A stretch of 64,000 nucleotides of DNA from Clostridia bacterium. GTDB taxonomy: Bacteria; Bacillota; Clostridia; Lachnospirales; Lachnospiraceae. Numbering within the stretch: the first letter of the stretch is position 1; every line of letters starts with the position of its first letter. Under the pieces are notes generated by a model that did not search any database, was not told the origin of the DNA, and saw nothing but the letters and a program-made list of their open reading frames with translations. The position numbers and the translations under genes are program-made. Shown in pieces: positions 19,309 through 54,673 of this stretch. The stretch covers positions 62,001 to 126,000 of the forward strand of contig CAJTAK010000010.1 of the NCBI GenBank assembly GCA_910574255.1, read 5' to 3'.

Positions 19309-19440
19309 TGAGTGAAAGAAACTGGAATACAGCATCCTTTAGACAGTGCCAGATGGATTTACGGATGCAGAATTAAGCAGCCGGGAATCCGTCTAAGAGA
19401 AAGGTGCTGGAGAAAGGATGCGGAACTGGAATAAAAAAAT

Positions 19441-39879: not shown

Positions 39880-40075
39880 GTAACGCTTGAAAGGTGCACA
39901 GAAGAATTTACAGACACATGCATCTGCAGCTGGAAATTCTTCTAGGAGAAGGTGTACATTTCAAATGTTACGGAACTAAAACAGTAACACTTGAAAGGTG
40001 CACAGAAGAATTTACAGACGCATGTATCTGCGGCTGGAAATACTTCTAAGAAGAGGTGTATCTTTCAAGTGTTAC
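39880..40075 (+). repeat. Tandem pair of 92-nt hairpins (family A locus)
   Basis: Two copies, 39880-39971 and 39984-40075, with period 104 bp. Each folds into one long hairpin: outer 20-bp arms (GTAACACTTGAAAGGTGCAC in copy 2), then AGAAGAATTT with AAAT-TTCT, then an inner stem CAG-A-CGCA with TGCG-G-CTG and a short loop. Most imperfect pairs are G-T with G on the left arm, which would be stable G-U pairs only in RNA from the plus strand. Both copies are preceded by the linker GGAACTAAAACA or a relative. They fill the IIC-IIB gap. A second locus is at 54454-54650. Confidence 0.85.
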
Positions 40076-40107
40076 GGAACTATAAATAAGAAAGGAAATT
40101 GAAAATT

Positions 40108-40395
40108 ATGATTAAAGTATTAGTTGCATGCGGATGCGGAATGGGAAGCTCTCAGTTATTAAAGAAAAATTGCTCTACGGTATTAAAAAATCTCGGCATT
40201 GAACACACGATTCATCATACCAGCATTGACGAGGCAAAGTCCACGGCACATGATTACGATCTGATTGTAGTAGGAGAAAACTTTGTGAGCCATTTGAAAG
40301 TAAAGGACGACACAACCGTAATCGGCCTGAAAAACCTGATGAACAAAAAAGAATTGGAGACCAAGCTCAGAGAAAGCGGAATCGTAGAAAACTAA
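40108..40395 (+). CDS. PTS IIB component (Ula/SgaB family)
   Basis: 95 aa with the phosphocysteine loop CGCGMGSSQ (residues about 8-16) at the end of strand 1 (KVLVACG), characteristic of lactose/cellobiose/ascorbate-type IIB. It is phosphorylated by a IIA and passes phosphate to the sugar bound by the IIC upstream. ATG 40108 has AAAGGA 11 nt upstream. There is no IIA beside it; one must be encoded elsewhere. Confidence 0.92.
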   Translation: MIKVLVACGCGMGSSQLLKKNCSTVLKNLGIEHTIHHTSIDEAKSTAHDYDLIVVGENFVSHLKVKDDTTVIGLKNLMNKKELETKLRESGIVEN

Positions 40396-40417
40396 GAACG
40401 GGAATGGAGAAAGAACA

Positions 40418-41389
40418 ATGAGACAGATGGATGAAGATGAGCTGGCAGTGATTGCAGAGGTGGCAAGAATGTACTACATAGAGGGAATGTCCCAGCTTGA
40501 CATAGCCAACATGCTCTTTTTTTCCAAGGCAAAGGTGTCTCGGGCTCTTCGGATTGCACGGGAGGAGCACATTGTAGAATTTCAGATCAACTATCCCTTA
40601 AAACGCTCTCTTGCGCTGGAGGCAGAGCTCAGGCGCAGGTTCGGGCTAAAGGAAGCGTTGGTGGTTACGGATCTCTATGACAACCAGAACACGGATATTT
40701 CCATCAAACGAATCGGAGAGATGGCGGCAAGTTATCTGGATGAGATCTTGAAAGACGGAGATTCCATCGGCGTGTCCTGGGGAAGAACCATGTACCAGGC
40801 GGTACGGCAGCTTAAGCCCTCTTCCCCCAGGAGGATCCAGGTGCTTCAGCTTATGGGCAGCTGCATGGATGATTACAATTTGGACATTGATGTGACAACC
40901 CTGACGGAACGAATGGCTCAGGCCTTTCAGGGAACAGCGGTCCGGCTGTATGCGCCTATGCATGTAAAGAGTGACATTGTTAGAAAAGAACTTTTGCGGG
41001 AGCCTATTATCCGCAAAACCATGGATAAGATACGCTCCGTGGACTATGCCCTGACAGGAATCGCCGATGTGTCTCTGGAGCGGCCAAGAAGCACTTGGGC
41101 AGGATATTTGACAGAGAATAAGAAACGGGAACTTATAAGAAAAGGTGCGGTTGGATATCTCTGCGGTTATTTTCTGGATAAAAACGGAAATAAGCTTTCG
41201 GATCCCATCAATGACAAAATTATCGGCATTTCCTTTGAGGATTTGAGAAAAATATCCCACGTGATTGCCGTAGCCGGAGGCATTGACAAAACCCAGGCTA
41301 TTTATGCCGCATTGAAAGGAAATTTAATTCATTGCTTAATTACAGACAGCCGGATAGCGGAAAAGCTGCTGGCGATGAGGGACAGCTAA
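40418..41389 (+). CDS. SorC/DeoR-family sugar-binding transcriptional regulator
   Basis: 323 aa. The N-terminal helix-turn-helix (about residues 15-50; YYIEGMSQLDIANMLFFSKAKVSRALRIAREEHIVEF) is followed by a SorC-type sugar-phosphate-binding domain (about 60-320; GVSWGRTMYQAV, LQLMGS, AVAGGIDKTQAIYAALKGN). These regulators respond to phosphorylated sugars made by the PTS. It lies 22 nt after IIB and 28 nt before the sulfotransferase gene, so it probably controls the whole operon from 38444 to 44557. Confidence 0.93.
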   Translation: MRQMDEDELAVIAEVARMYYIEGMSQLDIANMLFFSKAKVSRALRIAREEHIVEFQINYPLKRSLALEAELRRRFGLKEALVVTDLYDNQNTDISIKRIGEMAASYLDEILKDGDSIGVSWGRTMYQAVRQLKPSSPRRIQVLQLMGSCMDDYNLDIDVTTLTERMAQAFQGTAVRLYAPMHVKSDIVRKELLREPIIRKTMDKIRSVDYALTGIADVSLERPRSTWAGYLTENKKRELIRKGAVGYLCGYFLDKNGNKLSDPINDKIIGISFEDLRKISHVIAVAGGIDKTQAIYAALKGNLIHCLITDSRIAEKLLAMRDS

Positions 41390-41417
41390 AAAAGAGGCTG
41401 TCCGGAGAGGAGAATAT

Positions 41418-43286
41418 ATGACAGAAAGGATTTCTTACAGCTTCAGTGAAAGTCTGCCTGCAAGACAGGCTCAGGCGGAAGCGTCCATGCTGGAGGAATT
41501 TGCAGCGGGCGCCTATACCCTGGAAAAGCCCTTTCTCAGAGTGAATCCTTATTTGATAAATCCGCTGTCAGCGGTCGTGGCCTTTCGTACGGAAGAGGAA
41601 ACGGCAGTGACAGTTACCATATTCGGAAAAGAAGAACGGGGAACCATTGTACACACTTTCCCAAAGGCGAAGGAGCATATGCTTCCGATTCTCGGCCTTT
41701 ACGGGGACTATGACAATCAGGTGGAGCTGCGGCTTTATGGGGGACGAGCCCATACCCTTACCATTCGGACAAAGCCCCTGGATCCGCAGGTCCCGGCCCT
41801 GCTTTCCATGAAGACGGAGCCGGAATACACAGGGCAGGACTTAATCTTTGTGACCCCATCCCTCAATGCGTGCGCAACGGCCTTTGACTATAAGGGCGAC
41901 GTGCGCTGGCATCTGACCATCCCTGTTGTCTTTGAAATGGCACAGCTGCGCAACGGAAATTTCCTCATAGGAACCGAGCGTGTGATGCAGATGCCTTACT
42001 ATATGTCAGGTCTTTATGAGATGACCATGATGGGGAAAATTGTGAAAGAATATGCAATTCCCGGGGGCTACCATCACGATCAGTGCGAGATGGAGGACGG
42101 AAATATTCTGGTACTCACAGAGGATCCCGGCTATGAGACGGTGGAGGATGTCATTGTGCTTCTGGATCGGGAAACCGGAGAGATAAAAAGAACCTGGGAT
42201 CTAAAGGACTGCCTTGTTCCGGGGGAGGGCCCCTCCGGCGGCTATACGCCTAAGGACTGGTTCCACAACAACGCCCTCTGGTATGATAAGCATACCAATT
42301 CCATTACCCTTTCCGGCAGGCATGTGGATGCCATCATTAACATAGACTATGACACCGGAAAATTAAATTGGATTCTGGGCGATCCGGAAACCTGGCCGGA
42401 GGATAAGCAGAAATACTTCTTTACCATAAAAGGAGAGGGCGATTTTGACTGGCCCTACGAGCAGCACGGATGCATGGTTACGCCAAACGGCGGAATCATG
42501 TGCTTTGACAACGGACATTACCGTTCCAAGCTTCGTGAGAAGTTCCTCCTTAACAGAGACAGCTTTTCCAGAGGCGTGCTCTACCAGATTGACCGGGAGG
42601 CCATGACCATTGAGCAGCGTTGGCAGTACGGCAAGGAGCGGGGAGAGGAATTCTTTTCCTCCTATATCGGAAATGTGGAATGGTATGGGGAAGACCATTA
42701 CCTGGTTCACTCCGGGGGAATTCAGTATTATGGGGAGCATGCTTCTGAGAAGCCGGCAGCCCTGCTTAAAGGAGATCCCAATGTTCGTGCGGAGAGCATT
42801 ACGGTGGAGGTGCTTCGTGGAAAGGTCATTATGGAGATGAAGATAGAGGGGAACTTTTACCGGGGAAAGAAGATGTCCCTTTATCATGAACAGGATAACC
42901 TGCCCCTTGGAAAGGGAATTTGCGTGGGGCAGATGGGCATAACACCGGAATTTGACACTCTGATTCCCATGGAAGCCTGCGGGGAGCTGCTGCCCTACCG
43001 CTATGAGGCCGGCCTTACGGAGGAAGCGGATCGGTTTGTGTTCAAAGCCATTTTCGAGGGCGGACAGCTTGTAATGCTGATGCTGGAAAATGAAAAAGAG
43101 GAGCACGGATACTTTATTTCCACTTCCAAAAACAAGTTTAACGCCCTGTGCTGCGGCACATTTATTGAGAAAGATCCCAGAAATATTACCTTAAATGTGA
43201 ACAAAGCAGGACTTTCCGGCGTCTTCGATGTGCGGGTAATTGTAGATGACAAAAAGTATGAGACAGGCATCCGGATTACCTGCTGA
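41418..43286 (+). CDS. Arylsulfate sulfotransferase (ASST)-like protein without signal peptide
   Basis: 622 aa. An N-terminal beta-sandwich-like domain (about 1-125; LRVNPYLINPLSAVVAFRTEEETAVTVTIFGKE) matches the ASST N-domain, followed by a six-bladed propeller. The catalytic set of E. coli-type ASST can be aligned: His219/220 (GYHHDQ), His283 and Asn285 (WFHNN), Arg301 (SGRH) and His350 (EQHG). The enzyme would move sulfate from an aryl sulfate to a phenol via a sulfo-histidine. No signal peptide or lipobox is seen, so it should be cytoplasmic, unlike the periplasmic enzyme. AGAGGAG precedes ATG 41418. It is followed by thioredoxin reductase and thioredoxin. Confidence 0.85.
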   Translation: MTERISYSFSESLPARQAQAEASMLEEFAAGAYTLEKPFLRVNPYLINPLSAVVAFRTEEETAVTVTIFGKEERGTIVHTFPKAKEHMLPILGLYGDYDNQVELRLYGGRAHTLTIRTKPLDPQVPALLSMKTEPEYTGQDLIFVTPSLNACATAFDYKGDVRWHLTIPVVFEMAQLRNGNFLIGTERVMQMPYYMSGLYEMTMMGKIVKEYAIPGGYHHDQCEMEDGNILVLTEDPGYETVEDVIVLLDRETGEIKRTWDLKDCLVPGEGPSGGYTPKDWFHNNALWYDKHTNSITLSGRHVDAIINIDYDTGKLNWILGDPETWPEDKQKYFFTIKGEGDFDWPYEQHGCMVTPNGGIMCFDNGHYRSKLREKFLLNRDSFSRGVLYQIDREAMTIEQRWQYGKERGEEFFSSYIGNVEWYGEDHYLVHSGGIQYYGEHASEKPAALLKGDPNVRAESITVEVLRGKVIMEMKIEGNFYRGKKMSLYHEQDNLPLGKGICVGQMGITPEFDTLIPMEACGELLPYRYEAGLTEEADRFVFKAIFEGGQLVMLMLENEKEEHGYFISTSKNKFNALCCGTFIEKDPRNITLNVNKAGLSGVFDVRVIVDDKKYETGIRITC

Positions 43287-43307
43287 TTACAGGAGGGATA
43301 AGTGAAA

Positions 43308-44228
43308 ATGGCAGATTATGATTTGATTATTATAGGCAGCGGCCCGGCGGGGATGACGGCGGCCATCTATGGAGCCAGAGCCAATCTGTCCGTTCTGATG
43401 CTGGACAGGCTGGCGCCCGGCGGAAAGATCATCAACACCAGCGAAATTCAGAATTATACGGGAATGGGGACTGTGGAGGGTGCGGATCTGGCCATCCGCA
43501 TGTTCCAGCATACTCAGGAGTTAAATGTGGAGTTTGATTACAGGACCGTTCTTAAGGTGCAGGACAAGGGAAAGGAAAAGCTTGTCGTTTGTCAGGAGGA
43601 AGATAAAACCTACACGGCTTATGGGGTAATATTAAGCACCGGAACCAGTCCCAGAATGCTGGAAGCAGCAGGGGAAGAGCGCTATGTGGGAAACGGCATA
43701 AGCTGGTGCGCAATCTGTGACGGGGCAGGGTGCCGGGATAAGGATGTAGTGGTAATCGGCGGCGGAAATTCCGCTGTGGAGGAAGCTTCCTATCTGGCCG
43801 GATTTGCAAAATCCGTAACCGTAGTGGTGCGCTCTAAGCTGTCTGCGGATCCAATAGCTTGTGACAAGCTTCTTGGTCAGGAGAATGTGAAGCTTTATTC
43901 CGGACATGATGTGCTGGAATTCTGCGGTGAGAAAAAATTAGAGAGCGTCAGCCTGCGATCCAAAGAGACGGGAGAGGTATTTTCCGTAAGCTGCCAGCAG
44001 GTTTTTGAGTATATTGGACAGATTCCGGCCACGGATTGTTTTCAGGAGCTGGGGGTGTTAAATGCGGGAGGATATGTGGAGGCAAACAACCGGATGGAGA
44101 CGGCAGTGCCGGGAATCTTCGGAGCCGGGGACTGCATTGCCAAGGAACTGCGGCAGGTTGTTACTGCCTGTGCGGACGGGGCAATTGCGGCCCAGAGTGC
44201 GGCCCATTATATACAGAATTTAAAATGA
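43308..44228 (+). CDS. trxB: Thioredoxin reductase (NADPH- or ferredoxin-type flavoprotein)
   Basis: 306 aa with FAD motif IIIGSGPAGMTAAIYGARA, active-site CAIC in SWCAICDGAGC (about residues 133-136), NAD(P) motif VVIGGGNSAVEEASYLAG and C-terminal FGAGDC. It reduces thioredoxin. AGGAGGG lies 10 nt before ATG 43308; GTG 43302 is also possible. The second dinucleotide site has GGGNSA followed by VVRSKLSAD rather than the HRRxxxR motif of NADPH-specific enzymes, so another electron donor is possible. It lies 15-20 nt from its neighbours on both sides. Confidence 0.9.
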   Translation: MADYDLIIIGSGPAGMTAAIYGARANLSVLMLDRLAPGGKIINTSEIQNYTGMGTVEGADLAIRMFQHTQELNVEFDYRTVLKVQDKGKEKLVVCQEEDKTYTAYGVILSTGTSPRMLEAAGEERYVGNGISWCAICDGAGCRDKDVVVIGGGNSAVEEASYLAGFAKSVTVVVRSKLSADPIACDKLLGQENVKLYSGHDVLEFCGEKKLESVSLRSKETGEVFSVSCQQVFEYIGQIPATDCFQELGVLNAGGYVEANNRMETAVPGIFGAGDCIAKELRQVVTACADGAIAAQSAAHYIQNLK

Positions 44229-44245
44229 AAATAGGAGATGGATTT

Positions 44246-44557
44246 ATGTTGAGAGAAGTAATGGAAGAAGAATTTCGCCGGTCCGTAAAAGAGGGACTCG
44301 TACTTGCGGACTTTTATTCCGCCACCTGCGGACCCTGTAAGATGCTTTCCTTTGTGCTGGCGGATGTGGAAAAGGCCTGCGGGGACAAGGTGAATATTAT
44401 GAAAGTCGATTTTGATAAAAACAAAGTTCTCGTAGAAGAGTATGGAGTATCCGGATATCCCACCTTGATTTTTATGAAAGACGGGGAGGAATTAAAGCGG
44501 CTGACAGGTCTTCAGCAGAAGCCGGCTATTATCAAAATGATTGAGGAAGCGTTATAA
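44246..44557 (+). CDS. Thioredoxin
   Basis: 103 aa with the active site SATCGPCKML (CGPC at residues 28-31) and the cis-proline in GVSGYPTLIFM. The usual tryptophan before CGPC is replaced by threonine, which is a little unusual. AGGAG lies 8 nt before ATG 44246. It is the last gene of the ASST-trxB-trx run and would be reduced by the enzyme upstream. In some Gram-negative bacteria an ASST gene is accompanied by its own thiol-oxidising pair, so a dedicated redox partner is a sensible guess. Confidence 0.92.
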   Translation: MLREVMEEEFRRSVKEGLVLADFYSATCGPCKMLSFVLADVEKACGDKVNIMKVDFDKNKVLVEEYGVSGYPTLIFMKDGEELKRLTGLQQKPAIIKMIEEAL

Positions 44558-44566
44558 GGATATATC

Positions 44567-44601
44567 AAAAAAGGGACCGGCGCGGTTGTGCGTCGGTCCC
44601 T
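44567..44601 (-). terminator. Terminator of the small acidic protein gene
   Basis: GGGACCG and CGGTCCC (44573-44600 region) form a stem with a 15-nt loop. On the minus strand it is followed by TTTTTT (44567-44572 read in reverse), so it ends the leftward gene. It may also fold for the thioredoxin transcript. Confidence 0.75.
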
Positions 44602-44619
44602 GACACTAAACCTTAGCCA

Positions 44620-44874
44620 TTATTCCTCAACAGTCTCTTCCTCAGCAGCTTTTTCTTCCTCATTCTCTGCTTCCTCAGCCGTGTCTTCCACAGGGCTTAA
44701 AGACACATAGCCTCTTTCCGATGCTTCTGCTTCTTCCAGGTCATCATCCAGATCGTCGTCCAAATCATCATCAAAGGGATCGGCTGCAAAGAACTTCTTG
44801 TAAGCAAAGATACCTCCGGCGATGGTTCCGCAGACCAGTGCGGCAGAGCCTAAAAATTTAAAAAATTTCTTCAT
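44620..44874 (-). CDS. Small membrane-anchored acidic protein
   Basis: 84 aa. A basic N-terminus and one hydrophobic helix (about residues 7-26, FLGSAALVCGTIAGGIFAY) are followed by KKFFAADPF and an extremely acidic tail with repeated DDDLDD and EEAE units. No motif is recognised. Its acidic tail faces the cytoplasm or the cell surface depending on topology. The ribosome-binding site AAAGGAG lies upstream on the minus strand. Similar short proteins occur in Clostridia without known role. Confidence 0.7.
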   Translation of the reverse strand: MKKFFKFLGSAALVCGTIAGGIFAYKKFFAADPFDDDLDDDLDDDLEEAEASERGYVSLSPVEDTAEEAENEEEKAAEEETVEE

Positions 44875-44951
44875 ATCAGGTAAAACTCCTTTCTTTTACT
44901 TTTTAAATGTTCTTTTGGCTTTCCCTAACGCATACCCCTTTTGGATGGGCA

Positions 44952-44971
44952 GACTTCGTCAGGCAAGGTAT
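44952..44971 (-). repeat. Dispersed 20-bp repeat copy (inverted)
   Basis: On the minus strand it reads ATACCTTGCCTGACGAAGTC, a variant of the repeat at 10143-10225. It lies in the gap before the LiaF-like gene and forms part of a weak hairpin with GCATACCCC at 44930-44938. Confidence 0.55.
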
Positions 44972-45157
44972 ACACAGGAAACATTTTCTCTATTGTAATA
45001 CGAAACAAGCAAAAAGAAAAGCAAAAAAATTGAAAAATTTTATTGTCAAGGGAAAAAATATATATTACTCTATATAGAGATAAACGAATGCAAAGTCTGG
45101 AAAAAATTTTCCGGATTTATCTACATGACACAGTAAATGGGTCGGAAAGAGGAAAAG

Positions 45158-45850
45158 ATGAAAAACAGAGTTTCAAACGTAATATGGGGTCTGATTTTGA
45201 TTCTCATCGGAATCGGATATGCAGGAGGAAATCTTGGTTTCTGGGACTTTCATATATTCTTTAAGGGCTGGTGGACTTTATTTATTCTGGTGCCCTGTGT
45301 GATCAATTTGATACAGCATGGGCCCAACGGCGGCAATATAGCTGGTCTGTGCGTGGGAATAGCCCTTCTTCTTACTGCTCAGGGATTTTTGGAAATTTCC
45401 CTGATTCGCAAGCTTTTGGTTCCGGCTATTTTGATTCTTATCGGTCTTAGCATTATGCTCAGCAATACAAAGCGGAGAATTGTCGATCAGCAGGGGAATC
45501 AGATTCCCTTTGAAAAGACCGGGAGGGGCGGCTCTGATGTGTCAGGGGTTTTTGACGGAAGAAAGGTTCAGTATGACGGACTGCTCTTTGAGGGAGCTAC
45601 GGCCAGTGCGGTATTCGGCGGCGTGGAGATGGATCTGAGGATGGCGAGGATTGAGAGAGACGTGCGGATTGACGCAACGGCAATCTTCGGAGGCATCGAG
45701 ATCTATGTGCCCGCTAACGTAGTAGTGAAGGTTATGTCAACTCCGGTGCTGGGCGGCGTGTCCAACAAGGCCATGGCTCCTACGGAGGTTCCCTGCCATA
45801 CCTTATATATCAACGCAACCTGTGTATTCGGAGGAGTAGATATAAAATGA
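45158..45850 (+). CDS. LiaF/DUF5668-like membrane protein
   Basis: About 230 aa. Four short helices in the N-terminal half (residues about 8-25, 30-50, 56-73, 80-97; NVIWGLILILIGIGYAGGNLGF) are followed by a cytoplasmic beta-helical tail rich in GG turns (TASAVFGGVEMDLR, DATAIFGGIEIYVP, VLGGVSNKA, ATCVFGGVDIK), the C-terminal domain found in LiaF and related cell-envelope stress proteins. ATG 45158 follows GAAAGAGGA. There is no LiaSR two-component system beside it, so it may regulate something else. The stop overlaps the maf start by 4 nt. Confidence 0.78.
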   Translation: MKNRVSNVIWGLILILIGIGYAGGNLGFWDFHIFFKGWWTLFILVPCVINLIQHGPNGGNIAGLCVGIALLLTAQGFLEISLIRKLLVPAILILIGLSIMLSNTKRRIVDQQGNQIPFEKTGRGGSDVSGVFDGRKVQYDGLLFEGATASAVFGGVEMDLRMARIERDVRIDATAIFGGIEIYVPANVVVKVMSTPVLGGVSNKAMAPTEVPCHTLYINATCVFGGVDIK

Positions 45851-46431
45851 AAAAGAAGCTGATTTTAGCCTCTGCCTCTCCCAGAAGAAAGGAGCTTCTG
45901 GAGCAGATGGGACTTGTGTTTCGTGTATGTCCTGCCTGCGGGGAGGAGGAAAGCGTTCACCGGGATCCGGAGAAAATGGTGCTTGAGCTGGCTCTAAAAA
46001 AAGCCCGGGAGGTTGCTCAAAAGACAAAAGAAGATGCGCTGATAATCGGATCGGATACGGTGGTTGCTTTTCAGGGAGAGATTTTGGGAAAGCCTGCGGA
46101 CGAGGAAGATGCCATTCGGATGCTGAAAGGTCTTCAGGGCGCCTCCCATATGGTATATACGGGCGTTGCCGTGGTAGATGCCCGGACAGGAAAGGTGCTT
46201 CTGAACTTTGCGGATGGAACGGAGGTTTCCATGTATCCTATGACAGAAGAATGGATTCGCAGGTATGTCAAGACGGGGGAGCCTATGGACAAGGCAGGAG
46301 CTTATGCCATACAGGGCGGCTGTTCCTTGTGGATTCGGGGAATCAGGGGAGCCTACTCTACCGTAGTGGGATTTCCTGCTGCCCGGTTTTATCAGGAAAT
46401 GCTGGGGATTGGAATTGATTTGCTGAAATGA
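45847..46431 (+). CDS. maf: Maf-type nucleotide pyrophosphatase
   Basis: 194 aa of the Maf/Ham1-like fold. The N-terminal motif LASASPRRKELLEQMG, the conserved SDTVV in IIGSDTVVAF and the KPADEEDAIRMLKGLQG stretch are the family marks. It hydrolyses non-canonical or methylated nucleoside triphosphates (dTTP/UTP/pseudo-UTP subclass) to the monophosphate. It overlaps the LiaF-like gene by ATGA and is followed 17 nt later by a HAD phosphatase. The run 45158-49222 looks like one operon. Confidence 0.93.
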   Translation: MKKKLILASASPRRKELLEQMGLVFRVCPACGEEESVHRDPEKMVLELALKKAREVAQKTKEDALIIGSDTVVAFQGEILGKPADEEDAIRMLKGLQGASHMVYTGVAVVDARTGKVLLNFADGTEVSMYPMTEEWIRRYVKTGEPMDKAGAYAIQGGCSLWIRGIRGAYSTVVGFPAARFYQEMLGIGIDLLK

Positions 46432-46447
46432 GAAAGGACGGATAAGG

Positions 46448-47149
46448 ATGTATCGAGCCTGTATTTTTGATTTGGACGGGACACTGTGCGACAGTGTGGA
46501 GTCCATTGCTTACTGCGCCAATCATGCCCTTCGGGATCTTGGAATGAAGGAGGCATCCTTAGAAGACTATAAGATCTTTGTAGGGGACGGAGTGGATATG
46601 CTGGTTCGCCGGCTTTTGCGCTTTAACGGTGAGGAGTCAGACAGGCAGTTTGACGTATTGAAGGAAAAGTATATGGGGTATTTTCTGGATGGATGTATGT
46701 ACCATGTGGTGCCCTATCCGGGAATACCGGAGGCCCTAAGAGAGCTGAAAGGGCTGGGGGCAAAGCTTGGGGTAATCTCCAATAAGCCTCATGCCAATAC
46801 CCTGAATGTGATTGAGCAGGTGTTCGGGGAGGGTGTTTTTGACTGGGTGCAGGGGCAGACCAAGGATATGCCCAGAAAACCGGATCCGGCCGGGGCCTTG
46901 TATACGGCCAAAAAGCTTAAAGTTTTGCCAGGAGAGTGTCTCTACGTGGGAGATACGGACACGGATATGAGAACCGGAACCGCAGCCGGGATGCATACGG
47001 TGGGAGTTCTGTGGGGCTTTCGGGACAGAAAAGAGCTGGAGGAAACAGGAGCTAAAGAGATAATCGCCGAAGCCGGGATGCTGCCTGGGATTTATGCTGA
47101 TACACAATTATTCCCTGACGGACGAACAGGAGAAAGAGGAGCATTATGA
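46448..47149 (+). CDS. HAD hydrolase of the phosphoglycolate phosphatase type
   Basis: 233 aa. HAD motif I FDLDGTLCDS, motif II VISNKPH, motif III K in RKPDP, and motif IV GDTDTDMRTG. The cap is the C1 four-helix type. The overall form and LGVISNKPHANTLNVIEQVF block match Gph/PpaX-like phosphatases. It removes phosphate from phosphoglycolate or a similar small metabolite in the cytoplasm; the exact substrate is unknown. It overlaps the next HAD gene by 4 nt. Confidence 0.9.
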   Translation: MYRACIFDLDGTLCDSVESIAYCANHALRDLGMKEASLEDYKIFVGDGVDMLVRRLLRFNGEESDRQFDVLKEKYMGYFLDGCMYHVVPYPGIPEALRELKGLGAKLGVISNKPHANTLNVIEQVFGEGVFDWVQGQTKDMPRKPDPAGALYTAKKLKVLPGECLYVGDTDTDMRTGTAAGMHTVGVLWGFRDRKELEETGAKEIIAEAGMLPGIYADTQLFPDGRTGERGAL

Positions 47150-47931: not shown

Positions 47932-47955
47932 AATTAAGATCAGGAGGATTGCTGT

Positions 47956-48219
47956 ATGAACGAGTATTCGGAAGAATGTCTGGAGATTTTTTTGAGAAAG
48001 CAGGGCCGGCTTTTTGATGAGCCGGTGGCAGAAACTCTTGAGGAGGCAGAGGAATTTCTGGAGGACTGCATGGCAGTGGTGGTAAATTCTCTCAAAGAGG
48101 TTCAGGAGTATTTTGAGGAGAGCGGCATGGATGTATCCGGCTTGTCCTATGAGGAGCTGGAGGAGATGTCGGAGGTGTTCCCCATAGGCGATGGAGCCTA
48201 CCTGATTGTAGAGGCATAG
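47956..48219 (+). CDS. Small acidic protein of unknown function
   Basis: 87 aa, strongly acidic, mostly helical (ETLEEAEEFLEDCMAVVVNSLKEVQEYFEESGMDVSGLSYEELEEM), ending in a strand-like DGAYLIVEA. AGGAGG lies 9 nt before ATG 47956. It sits between the HAD gene and the parvulin-like gene, with 1 nt to the latter, so it is part of the operon. Relatives seem common in Lachnospiraceae in the same context, but I know no function. No metal or DNA-binding motif is evident. Confidence 0.75.
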   Translation: MNEYSEECLEIFLRKQGRLFDEPVAETLEEAEEFLEDCMAVVVNSLKEVQEYFEESGMDVSGLSYEELEEMSEVFPIGDGAYLIVEA

Positions 48220-48220
48220 T

Positions 48221-49222
48221 ATGAGGAAAAAACTAAAAAGAGGATTGACTGCGTGCCTGTGTGCCTGCCTGTTAGCAGGCGGTGCCACAGGCTGTAGTCG
48301 TTTTGAGAATACAGAAATTGTGCTGACCACCGGCCTTACGGAAAATCAGCTTTTTAAGGTCGGAAGCAGCGTATGCACACTGCCGGAGGCAATGATCTAT
48401 GTGATGGATTACCAGAGACAGTATGAGAGCGTCTATGGGGTAGAGATGTGGGAGCATGATTTCGGCGGCATTACTTTGGAGGAATATGTAAAAAATATCA
48501 TTGTGTCCCAGCTGGCGGCCATGAAGGCTGTGACCCTTCTGGCTAAGGATTATGAGATTGACCTGACAGAGTCAGAGACGGAAAATGTGAAAAAGGCGGC
48601 AAAGGAATATTATTCGTCTATGGGCAGTGATGCGGTGAAATATATGGGACTTGCCCAGGAGGATGTGGAGAACCTTTATCGGGATCATGTATTGTCCAGG
48701 AAGGTTTACCATGAGATTACAAAGAATGTGAATACAGAGGTCAGTGACGATGAGGCACGGATTATTACGGTTCAGCAGATTAAGATGGATTCCGTGGAAA
48801 GTGCAAAAAAAATTTTGGAGGATTTAGCGGAGGGGAAGGAATTTATGACACTGGCATCTGCTTATAGTCAGGACAGCCAGATTACTTACACCTTTGGGCG
48901 AGGAGAAATGTCTTCCGTTTATGAGGAGGCTGCCTTTGCTTTGGAAAATGACGGGGTCAGCGATATCATAGAGGAAGAGGATGGGTATTATATTCTTAAA
49001 TGTGTGAATAATTTTGATCGGGAAGCTACGGAGGCTAATAAGATTACTATGGTGGAACGCCGCAGGGATGAGATCTTTAGTGAGGTTTATGAGGATTTGG
49101 TAGCAAATACGCCTTCGGAGTTCAATACACGCATTTGGGAGCAGATACATTTTGAGGATTGGAAACGGGAGATTCCGGAGAGTTTTTTGGAGGTTTATAG
49201 TAGGTATTTTGAGGAGGAGTAG
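48221..49222 (+). CDS. Parvulin-type peptidyl-prolyl isomerase lipoprotein (PrsA-like)
   Basis: 333 aa. A signal peptide (residues 1-24, KLKRGLTACLCACLLAGGATGC) ends in a possible lipobox ATGC, with C25 the lipidated cysteine. A SurA_N-like helical region (about 60-170) is followed by a parvulin domain (about 180-270; ARIITVQQIKMDS, AKKILEDLAEGKEFMTLASAYSQDS, GRGEMSSVYEEAAFALENDGVSDIIEEEDGYYILK). It would help fold exported proteins outside the cytoplasmic membrane. It is the last gene of the run and is followed by a huge palindrome in a convergent gap. Confidence 0.88.
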   Translation: MRKKLKRGLTACLCACLLAGGATGCSRFENTEIVLTTGLTENQLFKVGSSVCTLPEAMIYVMDYQRQYESVYGVEMWEHDFGGITLEEYVKNIIVSQLAAMKAVTLLAKDYEIDLTESETENVKKAAKEYYSSMGSDAVKYMGLAQEDVENLYRDHVLSRKVYHEITKNVNTEVSDDEARIITVQQIKMDSVESAKKILEDLAEGKEFMTLASAYSQDSQITYTFGRGEMSSVYEEAAFALENDGVSDIIEEEDGYYILKCVNNFDREATEANKITMVERRRDEIFSEVYEDLVANTPSEFNTRIWEQIHFEDWKREIPESFLEVYSRYFEEE

Positions 49223-49232
49223 GGGGTGGACG

Positions 49233-49437
49233 AGGAAATGCAGCAAAATACGCCGGCTTTTCCATATCCGTGTTCGGACGGTTCACGTACACTCTGTCTG
49301 CTCTGAGCGGACATTACCCGGAAGTTTTTTTACAGTATTAAGATGGTGAGGGTAATATCCGCTCAGAGCAGACAGAGCGTTCGTGAACAGCCGGACACTT
49401 GATATTGGAAAAGCCGGCGTATTTTGCTGCAGTTCCT
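49233..49437. repeat. 205-bp near-perfect palindrome between convergent genes
   Basis: Left arm 49233-49319 and right arm 49350-49437 pair over about 85 bp with few mismatches. The outer 30 bp (from GCAGCAAAATACGCCGGC) is unique to this locus. The inner part, from GTTCGGACGG to CGGACATTACCC, is the same core as at 3868-3964, with paired changes (GAGC here, GTAC there). The loop is 30 nt with a TTTTTTT stretch. It sits where a bidirectional terminator would be expected between the parvulin and aminotransferase genes. Confidence 0.8.
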
Positions 49438-49468
49438 CTGTCTTTGGGGGTGGCAGTATCTTTTTTTG

Positions 49469-50563
49469 TTATAGCAGTTCTTTCATGCAGGCTAATAGTG
49501 CGTCGTTTTGGGCGGGGGTCATGAAGCAGAAGCGGATGTAGCGGTTGTCTAAGAAGGGGAAGGTGGAGCAGTTGCGTATCATCATTTTTTGGCGGATGGC
49601 GTGTTCGAATAGGGCTTCTGCGGTAACGCCTTCTTTTTCTATACGGACTAGGACGAAGTTGGCAAAGGAGTCGTATACTTTTAGGGTTCCCCAGGTTTTG
49701 AGTTCCTGGCAAAGTCTTGTCCGCTCTTTGGCGGTCAGTTCCCGGGTTTGAGTGATATAGTTTTTGTCTGAGAACATCAGTTCTCCGGCTGCGGCGGCCA
49801 GACTGTTGATGGTCCAGGGGTTTTTTCTGGAATTCAGTCCCTTCATTAGATCTTCGTTTCCGGTTATTGCATATCCCAGACGCAGGCCGGGGGAGGCGAA
49901 GAATTTGGACACGCCCCGTAAAATGATCAGGTTGTTGTAATAGCGTGTAAGGGGAACAGCGGTTATGGCTGCATAATCTGGGGCAAATTCTACATAGGTT
50001 TCGTCTATCATTACATAGATATCGCAGCGTTTGCAGGTATCCAGGATCTGCCGCATGGTTTGCTGGGGAATGGCAGAGGAGGTGGGGTTGTTGGGATTGC
50101 AGATTACCAGCAGGTTGAGGCTTTCATTTAGCTGTGCCTGGAAATCTTCTGCATCCAGGACGAATCCATTTTCTTCCTTAAGGGGATAATAAAGGGAGGT
50201 TCCGCCTCCTAAGGAGATTTCACGTTCATATTCTGAGTAGGTGGGGCCTAAGATGAGGGCCTTTTTTGGATGCTCAAGCTGGATAAAGAGGGAGATTAAT
50301 TCTGTAGAGCCGTTGCCCACCAGAATGTGCTCCAAGGGAGCGCCGGTGTAAGCCCCAATCTGCCGCCGCAGGGCCGTGTATTCCCGATCCGGGTAGGAGG
50401 TAATGCAGTCAATGCGGTCAAGGAGAGCCTGCCGCATGAGGGGGGAGATGCCCAAGGGATTTACATTGGCGCTGAAGCTTACAATATCTTCCTTTTTGAT
50501 GCCATATACCTGCTCTATTTTTTCCAGGTCACTGCCATGAAAATGATCTACATGTTTTAACAT
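49469..50563 (-). CDS. HisC/CobD-type PLP-dependent aminotransferase
   Basis: 364 aa. Fold-type I motifs: N in FSANVNPLG, NP in NPNNPTSS, D and Y in VMIDETYVEF, the PLP lysine in RGVSKFFASPGLRLGY, and Arg in NRYIRFCF. The start phrase HFHGSDLEKIEQVYG and ...SANVNPLG resemble CobD (threonine-phosphate decarboxylase) as well as HisC (histidinol-phosphate aminotransferase). No cobalamin or histidine genes lie nearby, so I cannot choose. ATG 50563 follows AAGAGG on the minus strand; an upstream in-frame extension has no start signal. Single gene. Confidence 0.85.
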   Translation of the reverse strand: MLKHVDHFHGSDLEKIEQVYGIKKEDIVSFSANVNPLGISPLMRQALLDRIDCITSYPDREYTALRRQIGAYTGAPLEHILVGNGSTELISLFIQLEHPKKALILGPTYSEYEREISLGGGTSLYYPLKEENGFVLDAEDFQAQLNESLNLLVICNPNNPTSSAIPQQTMRQILDTCKRCDIYVMIDETYVEFAPDYAAITAVPLTRYYNNLIILRGVSKFFASPGLRLGYAITGNEDLMKGLNSRKNPWTINSLAAAAGELMFSDKNYITQTRELTAKERTRLCQELKTWGTLKVYDSFANFVLVRIEKEGVTAEALFEHAIRQKMMIRNCSTFPFLDNRYIRFCFMTPAQNDALLACMKELL

Positions 50564-50754
50564 TGGAAAACCTCTTTTCTTGTACTTTATTTTAAATAAT
50601 GTTATACTATAACTAACCATGCGGAGTGTAAAATGAATGGCGTTTTCTACCATTATAATGCTATTTTAAAAAAATGCAATGGATAACATTGTTTCCCTTT
50701 TGGCAGAAATTGCTGATGAATCTGCAAAATGGAATAAGAAAGGACAAAAGAGAT

Positions 50755-53307
50755 ATGAGGGCGAAGATTGAGCGGATAGCAGCAGGGAAATTTGAATATG
50801 AGAAGTGTCCTGTGATTCTGTCGGAGCCCTATATTCAGTTCCGCTGCAATCCCGGAGGCCGTCATGAGGGAAGCTTTACCCTTTCCTGCAGGCGCTCCAT
50901 TAAGGGAATTGTCTATGCATCTTCCAGTCGGATGTATTTGGAGCACCCAAGCTTTCACAGCCGCAACGTACGGATTGTCTATGTGTTTGACAGTCGGGGC
51001 ATGTGGGGCGGAGAGGAAGTGGAGGGCGAGTTCTGCATTGTTACGGAGGCGGGGGAATATACCCTTTCTTACCGGATCCAGGTGGATGAGCACCGGGATC
51101 CGGAGGAGGACAGCTATGCTTATTTTATCTCTGCGGATCCGATTGAACCTCTTCCGGAGAAGATAGAGCGGCAATCGGATACGGTTTTGGAGATTATTGA
51201 TGATTTTAAGGAAGAGGCGATGACGCCGGATGAGGCTGTGCGCCTTACGGAGCTGATTTTAAAGAGCCGCCAGCCTACAGACAGTCAGCTTGCCAGGCTG
51301 AAGACGGCATATCATAAATACGGAGGACAGGAGATGCTGAGCGGCATCTGCTCCATTCTCATTAAATGCGGACGCACCGATGAGGAAAGCTTTTTCTGGT
51401 ATCAGAGGGGCGTGCGGATGGAGCTTAAGATTACCAATCTGTTTGAGTATTTTATAATGTCTGTGCCTGAGAATTATCAGGAGCAGCTTCCAAGGAACCT
51501 GCTCTTGTATTTTCAGATGGAGAATACCCTGAATAATAAGCAGAAGGCATTTCTCTATGCAAATATTATCCGGTATCAGGACAGGACTTCGGATATTTAC
51601 CGTCAGTATGAACGGGAGATCCAGTCCTTTATGCTGGAGCAGCTTTTGGGTCGAAAGCTCAGTGAGGATCTGGCTCTGATCTATGAGCGGTTTCTGGTGG
51701 AGGAACTTTTGACGATTGATTTTGCGGAGGCTTTGGCGGATATTATGTTTCTCCGTCAACTTACCTGTACAGATCCAAGGATTCGCCAGGTACAGGTGCT
51801 CTATGAACCTCTTAGGCAGCGGATTACAGTGCCCTTAATCGGTGGAAAGGCACTGGTGCCTGTCTACACGCCGGGGGCTGTGATTCTTCTGGTGGATGAA
51901 CAGGGAAATTGTTATACTTCCAGTGTGCCTTACAGTATGCAGCGGCTTATTAAGGAGCAGCAGTATGTGGAGCGGTGCAGAGAGCTTCTTCGATATCATC
52001 AGGGTTTGTATCTGCATCTTTGTGACGGGACCTCCCGTTATCATGTAATTACCAGAGAAAATGTGGAGAATTATAAGCGGATTCTCAAGATTAGCGGCCT
52101 GACAGCCCGGTACAAGCAGGAGGTTCGTCAGGAGATTCTTCAATATTACTATGCCAACCACGAACTGGAGGAGCTGGATCGGGAATTTTTTGTTACAGAG
52201 ACTACATATATGATGCCTAAGGATCGGGCCAGATTTACAGAGATCCTGATCTTAAGGGGGCTCTATGAGGAAGCTTGGGACATGGTAAAAAAGCATGGCT
52301 ATTCCATGGTTCGGGTCAATCTGCTGATTAAGTTGGCTGCATGGGCGATTCGGGAGCTGGAGTATGAGGAAGATGAATTTCTTTTGAAGCTCTGCCTCTT
52401 TATCTTTCAGAGCCATAAGTACAATGAGAGTATTTTGGAATATTTGGCCGGCTATTACTATGGTTCCTGTGAGATGATGGAGTCTATCTGGAAGGCGGGG
52501 GCGGAATTTGAGCTGAATGTGTTTGATTTGGAAGAGCGGCTGTTAAGTCAGATGCTTTTTACCGGGAAGTTTTTGGATTCGGCCTTTGCTGTCTTTCAGG
52601 ATTATCACCGGCTGGGAGGAAAGGGAATTGTCAGCAGGGCTTATTTGACTTGGCTGGCTTATGAGGATTTTGTACTGGGGGAAAAGATACCAAAGAAAAC
52701 CTATGATTACATTGAACAGGGCATTGTCTGGGAGGAAAATCTGGCAGATGTATGCGGTCTGGCTTACCTTAAGTATTTGTCCGGACAGGCCCAGTTATCG
52801 GAGCATCAGCGGATTCGAGCAGAACGAATGACTATGGAATACATACAGCGGCGGCTGCGCTTTGGATTTATGAAGGAGCTGCTTGCTCAGGTCGGAAAGC
52901 CGCAGCTTTTGGAGGACAAGACCTTTGTGGAGTACCGGACGAATCCCAATCATAAGGTGGTGATTCACTATGTAGTCGAGACACCAAGGGAGAGGCAGTG
53001 CAGTTATGTGGCGGAACGGCTTTACCCTACGGAGGTTGGAGTCTTTGTAAAGGAGTTTACGCTTTTTTTTGGAGAGCGTCTGACCTGGTTTGTGACGGAA
53101 ACCATGGAGGACGGAACGGAAAGCTCCACGCCGGATCACAGTCTTGTGGAGAACCGGGAGGAAGAGCTTGTGACCGGAACTAAGTATGCGGCTCTCTATG
53201 AGATGGCCCGCACTCTGGAAGAACGGGATATGCGGCTTCTGGAGCAGCAGATGGAGCAGTACGGACGCAGGCAGTTTTTGGTGGAGCGATTCTTTTCATT
53301 GAAATAA
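50755..53307 (+). CDS. Large DUF5717-like protein, first gene of a three-gene cluster
   Basis: 850 aa. The N-terminal 100-110 residues are beta-rich (GSFTLSCRRSIKGIVYASS, NVRIVYVFDSRGMWGGEEVEGEFCIVTEAGEYTLSYRI), like an immunoglobulin-type sandwich. A long helical region (about 150-650) has repeat-like helices resembling TPR/HEAT solenoids. The C-terminus is mixed with strands (NHKVVIHYVVETPRE...YPTEVGVFVKEFTLFFGERLTWFVTE). It has no membrane segment or signal peptide. From memory it corresponds to Pfam DUF5717, known from Lachnospiraceae; I could not verify. ATG 50755 has AAAGGA 10 nt upstream. It is followed by an actin-fold ATPase and TPR protein. Confidence 0.7.
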   Translation: MRAKIERIAAGKFEYEKCPVILSEPYIQFRCNPGGRHEGSFTLSCRRSIKGIVYASSSRMYLEHPSFHSRNVRIVYVFDSRGMWGGEEVEGEFCIVTEAGEYTLSYRIQVDEHRDPEEDSYAYFISADPIEPLPEKIERQSDTVLEIIDDFKEEAMTPDEAVRLTELILKSRQPTDSQLARLKTAYHKYGGQEMLSGICSILIKCGRTDEESFFWYQRGVRMELKITNLFEYFIMSVPENYQEQLPRNLLLYFQMENTLNNKQKAFLYANIIRYQDRTSDIYRQYEREIQSFMLEQLLGRKLSEDLALIYERFLVEELLTIDFAEALADIMFLRQLTCTDPRIRQVQVLYEPLRQRITVPLIGGKALVPVYTPGAVILLVDEQGNCYTSSVPYSMQRLIKEQQYVERCRELLRYHQGLYLHLCDGTSRYHVITRENVENYKRILKISGLTARYKQEVRQEILQYYYANHELEELDREFFVTETTYMMPKDRARFTEILILRGLYEEAWDMVKKHGYSMVRVNLLIKLAAWAIRELEYEEDEFLLKLCLFIFQSHKYNESILEYLAGYYYGSCEMMESIWKAGAEFELNVFDLEERLLSQMLFTGKFLDSAFAVFQDYHRLGGKGIVSRAYLTWLAYEDFVLGEKIPKKTYDYIEQGIVWEENLADVCGLAYLKYLSGQAQLSEHQRIRAERMTMEYIQRRLRFGFMKELLAQVGKPQLLEDKTFVEYRTNPNHKVVIHYVVETPRERQCSYVAERLYPTEVGVFVKEFTLFFGERLTWFVTETMEDGTESSTPDHSLVENREEELVTGTKYAALYEMARTLEERDMRLLEQQMEQYGRRQFLVERFFSLK

Positions 53308-53342
53308 AACAGTATCATGCAAAACTATAATAGGAGGACGAG

Positions 53343-54437
53343 ATGGGTCAGTTTGCGGCAGGCTTTGACTTGGGAAATGATTATTCACAGATATGCTGCT
53401 GGAATGCAGATTCCGGCGGTCCGGTATCCATATCCGTTGTGCCGGGAGCAGAAAAGTACCGGATTCCCACCGAGAGTCTGGAATTGTTTTTGAAAAAGGC
53501 TCTGCGGCTTTTGAAGCCATACGGCAGAATTCATGAGGCTATGGCAGTCGTTTTTTCTGTGGACACTCTGGAAGAAGGACTTGTGGAGCGGATTAAGCAG
53601 GCGGCTATGCGGACTATGGGTGTTCCGGAGAGCCGAATTTATGTACAGACTCGTCAGGAGAGTTTCTGCGCCTATGTGCTGAATCAGCCAAAGGAGATCT
53701 GGCGCCATCAGGCAGTGCTTTTTGACTATGAGGGGGAGGAGCTTCAGGGAATGGTGCTGAATGTGAATCCCCGGACGACACCGTTTTTGGCAAGGGTAGA
53801 GCGAGAAGAGGGTTGGAGCCGTCCCATTTCGGGGCTGCAGCAGACGAATAAGAATGAAGTCTTTCAGGAGTTGATACGAGAGATTTTTTCCGGCCGCCCG
53901 GTTTCGACGGTTTATCTGGTAGGAGACGGGTTTGAGGAAAACTGGTATGAGGATTCCCTGAAGCTTCTCTGCAATGGACGGAGAGTGTTTGCGGGCAATA
54001 ACCTCTATGCAAAGGGCGCCTGCTATCGGGCCATGCGTGCGGCAAGTCGGAACGAGGCTGCATCCTATGTGTTTTTGGGAGCAGACAAGATCTCTTATAA
54101 TGTGTGCCTCCGCACACCGGGTATAGGGAAGAACAGCATGTACACGCTTCTGAATGCAGGGGAGAGCTGGTATGAAGCCAAGGCCGGCTGTGAAGTGCTT
54201 CTCTATGATGAGCCGGTGGTGGAATTCTATTTTCAGCCCATGCAGGGACCGGAGGGACTGAAGGAGAGCCTGCTTCTGGAAGGATTGCCGGATCGCCCCT
54301 CCCGGGCATCCCGCCTTCGGATTGAGGTGGAATTTGTCAGCGTGGAACGCCTGCAGATCACAGTCCGTGATATGGGCTTTGGAGAATTGTTTCCTTCATC
54401 CGACTTGTGCTGGGCGGAGGAAGTAGATTTATCTTAG
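53343..54437 (+). CDS. Actin/Hsp70-fold ATPase-like protein (DUF5716-like)
   Basis: 364 aa. The phosphate-1 loop is GFDLGNDYSQI at residues 7-17, as in Hsp70, FtsA and MreB relatives. Further marks are a possible phosphate-2 segment AVLFDYEGEELQGMVLN and the adenosine-type phrase STVYLVGDGFEENWY; an ALYAKGACYRA segment matches the NxxAxGA helix of Hsp70-like proteins. The C-terminal part is beta-rich. A substrate-binding domain typical of DnaK is absent. It starts 36 nt after the large DUF gene, with AGGAGG upstream. It may act as an ATP-driven scaffold or switch with its two partners. Function is not established. Confidence 0.7.
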   Translation: MGQFAAGFDLGNDYSQICCWNADSGGPVSISVVPGAEKYRIPTESLELFLKKALRLLKPYGRIHEAMAVVFSVDTLEEGLVERIKQAAMRTMGVPESRIYVQTRQESFCAYVLNQPKEIWRHQAVLFDYEGEELQGMVLNVNPRTTPFLARVEREEGWSRPISGLQQTNKNEVFQELIREIFSGRPVSTVYLVGDGFEENWYEDSLKLLCNGRRVFAGNNLYAKGACYRAMRAASRNEAASYVFLGADKISYNVCLRTPGIGKNSMYTLLNAGESWYEAKAGCEVLLYDEPVVEFYFQPMQGPEGLKESLLLEGLPDRPSRASRLRIEVEFVSVERLQITVRDMGFGELFPSSDLCWAEEVDLS

Positions 54438-54453
54438 AAAGGAACTTAAAACA

Positions 54454-54650
54454 GCAGTATCTCGTGCAACGCCAGAAGAATTTACGGATGCATGCATTTG
54501 CAGCCGGAAATTATTCTAAGAAAGGGGTGTTGTTAGAGATACTGCGGAACTTAAAACAGCAGTATCTCGTGCAACGCCAGAAGAATTTTTGGATGCATGC
54601 ATTTGCAACCGGAAATTCTTCTAAGAAAGGGGTGTTGTTAGAGATACTGC
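54454..54650 (+). repeat. Tandem pair of 92-nt hairpins (family A, second locus)
   Basis: Copies at 54454-54545 and 54559-54650, period 105 bp, each 92 nt, equal in length to those at 39880-40075. The core AGAAGAATTT...GGAAAT-TTCTAAGAA is shared, while the outer 20-nt arms (GCAGTATCTCGTGCAACGCC here) differ entirely from the first locus and still pair with their partner. A G-U pair is again placed for plus-strand RNA. The linker GGAACTTAAAACA precedes each copy. The array fills the gap between the actin-fold gene and the TPR gene, and its open frames are a by-product. Confidence 0.88.
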
Positions 54651-54673
54651 GGAACTTAAATAGAGGTAGTAAC

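Follow-up and report, generated by a model that had tools for sequence, protein, structure and literature searches.

A high-copy RNA hairpin repeat located directly in front of Shine-Dalgarno sequences in a Lachnospiraceae genome

Introduction

Two operons in the genome of a Lachnospiraceae bacterium, probably a gut dweller, contain tandem pairs of long hairpins between neighboring genes, which raises the question of what these hairpins are and how they came to occupy such sites. An earlier note on the 64-kb stretch of DNA analyzed here (referred to as the window) described four hairpins of 92 nt joined by the linker GGAACT(T)AAAACA. All four are present at the coordinates given below and are members of a high-copy family, named here element A, whose unit consists of AAACAG, the hairpin, and CGGAACTnnAATA, is non-coding, and measures about 110 nt. 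The window also carries a fifth copy, a degraded copy, and a remnant of another repeat family, element B. The features are as follows (SD, Shine-Dalgarno sequence):

7583..7685, + strand: degraded copy of element A, 5' of AATAGGAGG and a start codon
14085..14184, + strand: element B remnant, with no sense start within 40 nt
19327..19434, + strand: fifth copy of element A, single, with a start codon shortly 3'
39880..39971, + strand: hairpin copy 1, between the EIIC gene (stop codon 39872-39874) and the IIB gene
39972..39983, + strand: linker GGAACTAAAACA from copy 1 to copy 2
39984..40075, + strand: hairpin copy 2, with outer arms 39984-40003 and 40056-40075
40004-40047, + strand: inner stem and loop of copy 2, with two A-G mismatches
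40048-40055, + strand: 3' bulge of copy 2, 8 nt
40076..40089, + strand: 3' tail GGAACTATAAATAA of the last copy in the EIIC/IIB array
40090..40097, + strand: SD-like GAAAGGAA of the IIB gene (PF02302), start codon at 40108
54454..54545, + strand: hairpin copy 3, between the DUF5716 gene (ends at 54437) and the TPR-like gene
54546..54558, + strand: linker GGAACTTAAAACA from copy 3 to copy 4
54559..54650, + strand: hairpin copy 4
54651..54662, + strand: 3' tail GGAACTTAAATA of the last copy in the DUF5716/TPR-like array
54663..54667, + strand: SD GAGGT of the TPR-like gene, start codon at 54674

The pairs had been described as exactly filling the gaps between genes; each array does lie between the upstream stop codon and the SD, but the SD itself is outside the array. 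The GAGGT of the TPR-like gene is also present in relatives without a copy, such as G005.

Copy Number and Distribution

Element A has 149 matches in its own genome (150 candidates scored), and is multi-copy, short, and non-coding, as are MITEs of the ERIC, Correia, and RUP type. A regular-expression finder was abandoned because of its low recall (84/132). The distribution is patchy: 7 of 299 sampled genomes of the family are positive, and in a second sample the element occurs in 10 of 61 genomes, the own genome being counted both times. The earlier statement that no such family has been described holds for Rfam 15, in which the element matched no family at the gathering score and only tRNA was hit, and for the open-licence papers listed in literature searches, among which no account of the element appeared. 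Permissive Rfam searches gave one sub-threshold match each (E 0.84 and 0.34). Phage records contained no match to two copies of element A, and plasmid records none to one copy with its adjoining element B.

RNA Structure and Covariation

Folded as sense RNA, copies 1-4 reach z values of -5.8 to -10.4 relative to their own shuffles, none of 200 shuffles folding as well. Antisense RNA, tried for copy 3 alone, also folds well (z -6.9) but is less stable, at -34.2 kcal/mol compared with -44.1 kcal/mol for sense. Across 130 copies, 93.5% of pair cells are able to pair (73.2% after shuffling), and 32 of 37 pairs show changes on both sides (24.5 after shuffling). In three alignments, G-U cells exceed A-C cells by 333:53, 235:29, and 185:14. 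Non-canonical positions are maintained as well: the first mismatch site keeps A•G in 110/130 copies, and the second has A•G in 92/130 and the swapped G•A in 25/130. The covariation and the excess of G-U over A-C support the plus-strand RNA element proposed earlier and show that the selected form of element A is a sense-strand RNA structure.

Two of the earlier descriptions require modification. The outer arms were said to be unlike between loci while pairing with their own partners; the pairing and the variation are confirmed, but a complete lack of resemblance is not, since the arms share motifs genome-wide, namely the outermost CAGYA...TRCGG, a loose ARTATCC...GGATATT, and an inner GTGCAC...GTGTAC, between which the sequence varies. 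Compensated arm changes, proposed as a check, are found in the own genome and in others. Likewise, a conserved core exists, but it is not fixed: compensated variation occurs within it, for example AGAAGAATTT/AAATTCTTCT versus AGAACAATTT/AAATTGTTCT in L014.

Placement in Front of Shine-Dalgarno Sequences

In the own genome, 90 of 114 arrays are located 4-20 nt 5' of a sense start codon with an SD, compared with 2.7% of random positions passing the same start-codon/SD test; none of the 114 passes with an antisense start, and the remaining arrays pass on neither side. Among relatives, whose arrays were taken from the best-scoring matches listed and hence form a non-random sample, 67/71 pass the sense test and 0/71 the antisense test. 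Cruder picking of the nearest ORF had placed an antisense ORF behind 13/114 arrays and in front of 12/114; for the final counts, actual start codons were sought instead. Copies are therefore not random with respect to transcription, a point on which the earlier note had made an RNA role depend, and every passing array has the orientation of the gene that follows it.

With regard to an SD-sequestering switch, ligand-free prediction gives no significant change of SD exposure: for 81 single-copy arrays it is 0.564 with the element, 0.531 with the element shuffled (p = 0.06), and 0.538 with the element removed (p = 0.14).

Downstream Genes and Orthologous Gaps

The genes behind element A are of mixed functions (36 from a random draw of 40 among 99 eligible genes, plus two window genes), and nine of the 36 sampled have no family at the cut-off used. 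Only 12 of the relatives' 71 arrays precede a gene whose own-genome counterpart (at least 70% identity) also has an element, or 9/68 without the three arrays included because of the window loci, and a conserved regulon was rejected on this count. A previous set with some overlap comprised 94 downstream genes, of which 22 matched at 1e-10, nine of these with at least 73% identity. A role in processing or in setting gene ratios was an earlier hypothesis; the variety of genes and the scant conservation of position speak against a dedicated host function. In relatives, one and the same gap may be empty or hold a shortened or full version of the element. In the EIIC/IIB gap, five pairs are doubly changed between the own genome and G002 with pairing kept, an observation that may equally mean host function and in that respect speaks against a mobile repeat.

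Mobility and Remnants

Copies L179 (contig C16) and L169 (contig C11) occupy unlinked loci and are 99% identical from GCGTAGCAACTT to AATAGGAGGA, with no identity past these limits. At L131, an old right-arm tail, resembling the right arm of an intact copy at the G012 ortholog (L341), is followed by an element with other arms that adjoins the SD; at this locus, a new copy lies between the old tail and the SD. Near-identical unlinked copies, empty orthologous gaps, and the adjacent old tail and new copy at L131 support the earlier suggestion of a mobile hairpin whose arms change.

Remnants retain the 3' end far more often than the 5' end (38 vs. 6 at E<=3), many of the 38 being weak matches and two of the six being opposite-strand shadows of 3'-end remnants. 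Equal tolerance was applied at both ends, which carry similar information (33.6 and 36.7 bits). Stricter cut-offs give 14 vs. 2 (E<=0.1) and 7 vs. 2 (E<=0.01), so that the retained 3' end and truncated 5' end expected of a SINE-like retroelement are found, weakly at the strictest level. Eleven of 21 readable remnants have the same arm as the adjacent full copy, which the decay of tandem duplicates fits too. The SD-proximal copy outscores the most distal one in 20/31 arrays, both window arrays being excluded since they had served to build model R1; this is a trend only (p = 0.15), and array polarity was rejected as proof that the newest copy is the nearest.

Candidate Enzymes and Signs of DNA Transposition

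A reverse transcriptase was rejected as the mobilizing enzyme, since RVT_1 does not co-occur with element A: it is found in 9/13 carriers and 8/13 other genomes, and is absent from four carrier assemblies (G006, G012, G028, G212), where past activity or assembly gaps are possible. The Y1 transposase was rejected on the same grounds (8/13 carriers vs. 7/13 others). Assemblies of carriers without RVT_1 or Y1 transposase are 83-97% complete. Direct repeats of at least 5 nt flank 19 of 45 usable arrays (of 114), compared with a shuffled mean of 12.8 and maximum of 21, and hence give no signal of target duplication. By eye, there are no terminal inverted repeats beyond the hairpin arms, the ends AAACAG and GGAACTnnAATA not being inverted repeats of each other.

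Interpretation and Rival Explanations

These observations point to a small element of an unnamed kind, moving between sites in front of ribosome-binding sites. The reading we prefer, with a probability of roughly one half (about 0.48), is that element A is a non-coding, high-copy repeat that multiplies by short insertions directly 5' of SDs, in the sense of transcription, through 3'-anchored copying. In one conceivable route, a DNA 3' end able to pair with the SD would prime on the SD-bearing leader of another element, the template being either leader RNA or, by template switching, leader DNA; copying would run upstream and end at differing positions. The RNA fold may be kept for a role in copying, for the upkeep of a working intercistronic mRNA, or for both. 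As each copy forms a long intercistronic hairpin in mRNA, altered mRNA processing is a likely side effect.

Processing itself could be the purpose, the hairpins serving as SRPS or RNase III-type cleavage sites between cistrons. The sense-only location between sense genes, the long stem, and the preserved pairing at orthologous EIIC/IIB gaps agree with this, and SRPS are stem-loops between genes of clostridial operons, reported in Clostridium cellulolyticum (PMC4423207). Nevertheless, positional conservation in relatives is low, the conserved core and GGAACT tail exceed the needs of a generic stem, and abutment on the SD is superfluous for processing, so that we regard this explanation as rather unlikely. 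To our knowledge, SRPS stem-loops are gene-specific and form no repeat family. A regulatory RNA that acts in cis, is recognized by a protein or ligand, and controls the translation of over 100 genes together would account for the narrow SD distance, the conserved non-canonical pairs, and the single-stranded GGAACU; it is unlikely given that the downstream genes lack the coherence of riboswitch or protein-bound leader targets, presence varies among close relatives, predicted SD exposure does not clearly change, and tandem and truncated copies are common.

High copy number, dispersal, small size, and a palindrome would also characterize an ordinary DNA-transposed miniature repeat of the MITE or REPIN type, in which the palindrome is needed as DNA. 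The missing inverted repeats and duplication signal, the carriers devoid of Y1 transposase, the strand-asymmetric wobble pairs, and the kept A•G mismatches make this quite improbable. Finally, arms that agree within each copy though different between loci could result if imperfect palindromes were corrected by template switching on DNA, with no selection on RNA. Such correction should erase both A•G mismatches along with the bulge of 8 nt, and it predicts no excess of G-U over A-C; we consider it very improbable.

Comparison with Known Systems

ERIC and Correia/NEMIS elements are, according to PMC2229807, whose text does not contain the term 'Shine-Dalgarno', palindromic, dispersed sequences of about 100-160 bp, situated in transcribed gaps and folding as RNA, with terminal inverted repeats, target duplications, and reported effects on mRNA cleavage. 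Element A is likewise short, palindromic, dispersed, located in transcribed gaps, and folded as RNA, but differs in its strict orientation and SD abutment, compensated arm variation, and no duplication seen. BOX elements of Streptococcus are presented in PMC3049150 as modular, predicted to form RNA stem-loops, suggested to be parasitic, and over-represented between convergent genes. Unlike these, arrays of element A never pass the antisense test, and most are directly 5' of an SD. REPIN/RAYT systems comprise hairpin repeats with many copies per genome and require a Y1-type transposase, whereas 5/13 carriers of element A lack one. Eukaryotic SINE retroelements are non-coding and RNA-structured, with a kept 3' end and 5' truncation; element A differs in having no co-occurring reverse transcriptase and in its target, the SD.

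If the preferred reading is true, a class of small bacterial repeats spreads by a rule that translation signals set, not a transposase target, and about 100 genes of mixed function, housekeeping genes among them, carry a strong RNA hairpin in front of them. Close species would then come to differ rapidly in the shape of their operon mRNAs, and an as yet unknown means of copying would be active.

Elements B and C at the Same Kind of Site

Repeat families B and C are unrelated to element A, adjoin SDs, and stack with it. A sense start lies close behind 10/11 groups of C and 22/33 groups of B. A broader and rather doubtful proposal is that SDs are a genome-wide landing pad, SD-ended leaders being copied into the SD sites of other genes by SD priming. 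Under such copying, the unrelated structured repeats A, B, and C would pile up in front of SDs and be the bacterial equivalent of SINEs. Only three families are seen at SDs, though SD-primed copying should move any leader, an observation that counts against 3'-anchored copying. By eye, element B is directly 3' of element A in 6/114 arrays and element C in one.

Structure of element A

Element A is a family of hairpin repeats of about 110 nt. The earlier note had described four 92-nt hairpins in the window, and these were borne out at the following positions, where they fold far better than shuffled sequences:

39880-39971 and 39984-40075, two tandem copies of element A, after the EIIC gene and before a PTS IIB gene
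54454-54545 and 54559-54650, two tandem copies of element A, after the DUF5716 gene and before a TPR-like gene

The fold comprises an outer stem of 20 bp and an inner one of about 10 bp. Beyond the inner stem come two A•G mismatches, 3 bp apart, and then 4 bp closed by a hexaloop; eight nucleotides bulge out of the 3' strand where the two stems meet. Individual copies carry mismatches within this structure. The hairpin is followed on its 3' side by GGAACTnn, and then by AACAG where another copy comes next or by AATA and the Shine-Dalgarno sequence (SD).

This fold is selected as RNA, on the sense strand. In 130 copies from the own genome, standard pairs fill 93.5% of the pair cells (73.2% in shuffled data) and both-side changes are found in 32 of 37 pairs (shuffled mean 24.5), counts that are biased towards the structure, as the alignment was fitted to it and the copies were picked by a structure model. 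When the partners are displaced by one to three columns, only 35-50% of the cells pair, and the covariation score is 0.585 versus 0.220 after shuffling. G-U cells outnumber A-C cells by 333:53 in the own copies and by 235:29 and 185:14 in two partly overlapping sets from other genomes. At the first mismatch site, 110 of the 130 copies have A•G; at the second, 92 have A•G and 25 have G•A. Mismatches kept in this way would not be expected of a plain palindrome or of palindrome correction.

Two copies are unusual in form. In Bacterium D16-50 (L084:3229-3339), AAACAGTCTCGGAACGAAAA is doubled at the left end, possibly through rearrangement, and in a MAG titled Oscillospiraceae (L073:7486-7592), the inner stem is unusually remade (CAATGTGTCTGGCGACACATGAGG).

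Copy number and distribution

With R1, the covariance model built from the four window copies, at least 149 matches were found in the own genome (5.04 Mb; 150 of 2216 first-look candidates scored), the weakest at an E-value of 3.5e-4. Covariance and nucleotide-profile matches combined gave 154 full-length copies in the window and 77 stretches fetched around matches. Of 61 genomes, the own one among them, R1 matched 10: nine of the 16 members of the genus, counting the own genome, and one from a different genus. Within the genus, G015 holds a single weak copy. Using R2, built from 130 copies, the family was detected in seven of 299 sampled family genomes (own included), each in a different genus, and among 391 sampled genomes of the class in the own genome solely, under strict filters by which weak matches are lost in these large searches. 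The exact core pattern occurred in 58 stretches in one scan of genome contigs, whose titles include Clostridia bacterium, Lachnoclostridium sp., Lachnospiraceae bacterium, Bacterium 1XD21-13 and D16-50, and in one case a MAG titled Oscillospiraceae. The Clostridia bacterium titles carry MGBC catalogue numbers, which denote mouse-gut origin. Judging by these titles, the own genome is probably that of a gut Lachnospiraceae.

Placement before Shine-Dalgarno sites

Element A abuts the SD, and does so in the sense orientation only. The next gene on the 3' side is sense in 101 of 114 own arrays (one or more tandem copies at one site) by crude gene picking, and a search for starts finds that of a sense ORF no more than 60 nt away in 109. 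A stricter test, which asks for an SD-like sequence plus a start codon lying 4-20 nt beyond the end of the model, was passed by 90/114 own arrays, compared with 537 of 20,000 random positions; in the antisense direction, out of the 5' end, 0/114 passed. Relatives' arrays, taken from stretches around top-scoring matches among those listed, gave 67/71 sense and 0/71 antisense. Several of the 24 own arrays missing the SD and start then carry another copy or another family. The sense rule is obeyed as well by arrays that face against the majority on their contig (for example, C2:143722). The upstream distance is unconstrained: in the 107 of 114 own arrays with a sense gene ending within 400 nt upstream, its stop lies anywhere from inside the first letters of the element to 357 nt away. 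In predictions, no clear hiding or freeing of the SD by the element was seen.

The downstream genes were sampled by drawing 40 at random out of 99 eligible ones and scanning 36 of these. Families above their cut-offs included GatB, Der, UppS, AddB, IlvC, GlpK (twice), RnfC, ThiE, purine nucleoside phosphorylase, CysW and 6-phospho-beta-glucosidase; no family was found for nine of the 36, and other genes had families below the cut-off.

Dispersal, remnants and turnover

Element A is dispersed. Copies at different loci share a mean identity of 61%, versus 83% within one array (18 pairs). The most alike unlinked copies, on contigs C16 and C11, are 99% identical; their likeness runs from inside the 3' end of an element B, a further repeat family, to the SD, with unlike flanks on both sides. 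Remnants partly show a retention of the 3' end: those with the 3' end and without the 5' part outnumber the reverse type by 38 to six at E≤3 (opposite-strand shadows account for two of these six), by 14 to two at E≤0.1 and by seven to two at E≤0.01. A full copy immediately follows 22 of the 38, and eight stand before an SD-like sequence; the 22 have an arm in common with the full copy in 11 cases, a different arm in 10 and an unreadable one in one.

Orthologous gaps were read by eye. Among the 15 genomes shown for the DUF5716/TPR gap, the own genome (G000) carries two copies, and G006 a single one whose arms differ. Remnants of the 3' end stand in G012 and G013, and perhaps in G002 and G007; no element A was seen in G004, G005 or seven genomes (nearly) without the family. 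Genomes with a copy or remnant (G000, G002, G012) and genomes in which these are absent or doubtful (G005, G007) have similar SDs at the TPR gene (GAGGT), so this SD seems to be supplied by the host. Of 10 genomes compared at the EIIC/IIB gap, G000 and G002 carry two copies each, G012 one copy and a mini-hairpin, G007 one degraded copy, and six none.

For 12 of the relatives' 71 arrays (in G002, G012, G005 and G006), an element is present at the own-genome counterpart of the downstream gene too, usually with arms that differ. The turnover process is in view when the own locus L131, an old right-arm tail followed by an element with other arms adjoining the SD, is compared with its G012 counterpart, L341. 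In 13 orthologous comparisons, pairing is mostly preserved, and each comparison shows between 0 and 13 double changes; some cases probably reflect replacement rather than descent.

Possible mode of spread and comparison with known repeats

Element A may spread by 3'-anchored copying, in which the SD would act as the shared priming sequence. Among 13 carriers tested, RVT_1 was not found in G006, G012, G028 and G212, nor the Y1 transposase in G004, G006, G007, G028 and G319.

Element A had no match in Rfam 15. Of the features expected of MITEs, no target-duplication signal (45 of 114 arrays usable) and no terminal repeats were seen; the transposase expected for REPIN/RAYT, Y1, is missing in 5/13 carriers. 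ERIC, NEMIS and BOX are likewise dispersed hairpins (PMC2229807, PMC3049150), and SRPS stem-loops resemble element A in position (PMC4423207); element A differs from these in adjoining the SD, in its exclusively sense orientation and in its compensating arms. We rate it as belonging with the small dispersed repeats, as a new form of them, and its way of spreading could be new.

Further repeat families

Two more families stand at SDs:

L129:5251-5429, minus strand, element B, multi-helix, nearly identical at several loci; also in L140, L160, L188, L126, L120, L144 and L149
14085-14184 of the window, element B remnant
L186:1807-2101, L132:762-1052, L185:422-572, L172:6507-6570 and L121, family C, small hairpins that frequently come in tandem (ACACCCTRCGGGTATACC, ATGCACAAAAAACATGTGCA)

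Element B (about 170 nt, without an Rfam match) has predicted helices with both-side changes in 9/53 pairs, is 98-100% alike between several loci and ends 3' in GCAACTTAA, followed by the SD. A sense start lies within 40 nt behind 22 of 33 element B groups, most others then having element A. Element B directly follows element A in 6/114 arrays, and its 3' end directly precedes the first A copy in 10/114 (crude pattern). Family C hairpins end 3' in GGAAAGGAG and then the start codon; the sense start is 7-15 nt away in 10 of the 11 groups and 35 nt away in the other. In L121, family C comes after element A. No likeness between the three families was seen beyond the tails of A and B, and the site therefore seems to be their common factor.

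Two other repeats were noted. A palindromic one of about 200 nt (GGGGCTGTCGCAAAATAAGACAGAAG...), another dispersed family, lies at 3869-4011 and 49237-49433 of the window and in L191, L130, L177 and L180, and one with GAATCCGGCCTAT...AGGCCGGATTC arms occurs at several loci (L129:5461-5599, L176:13654-13758, L189:3223-3314).
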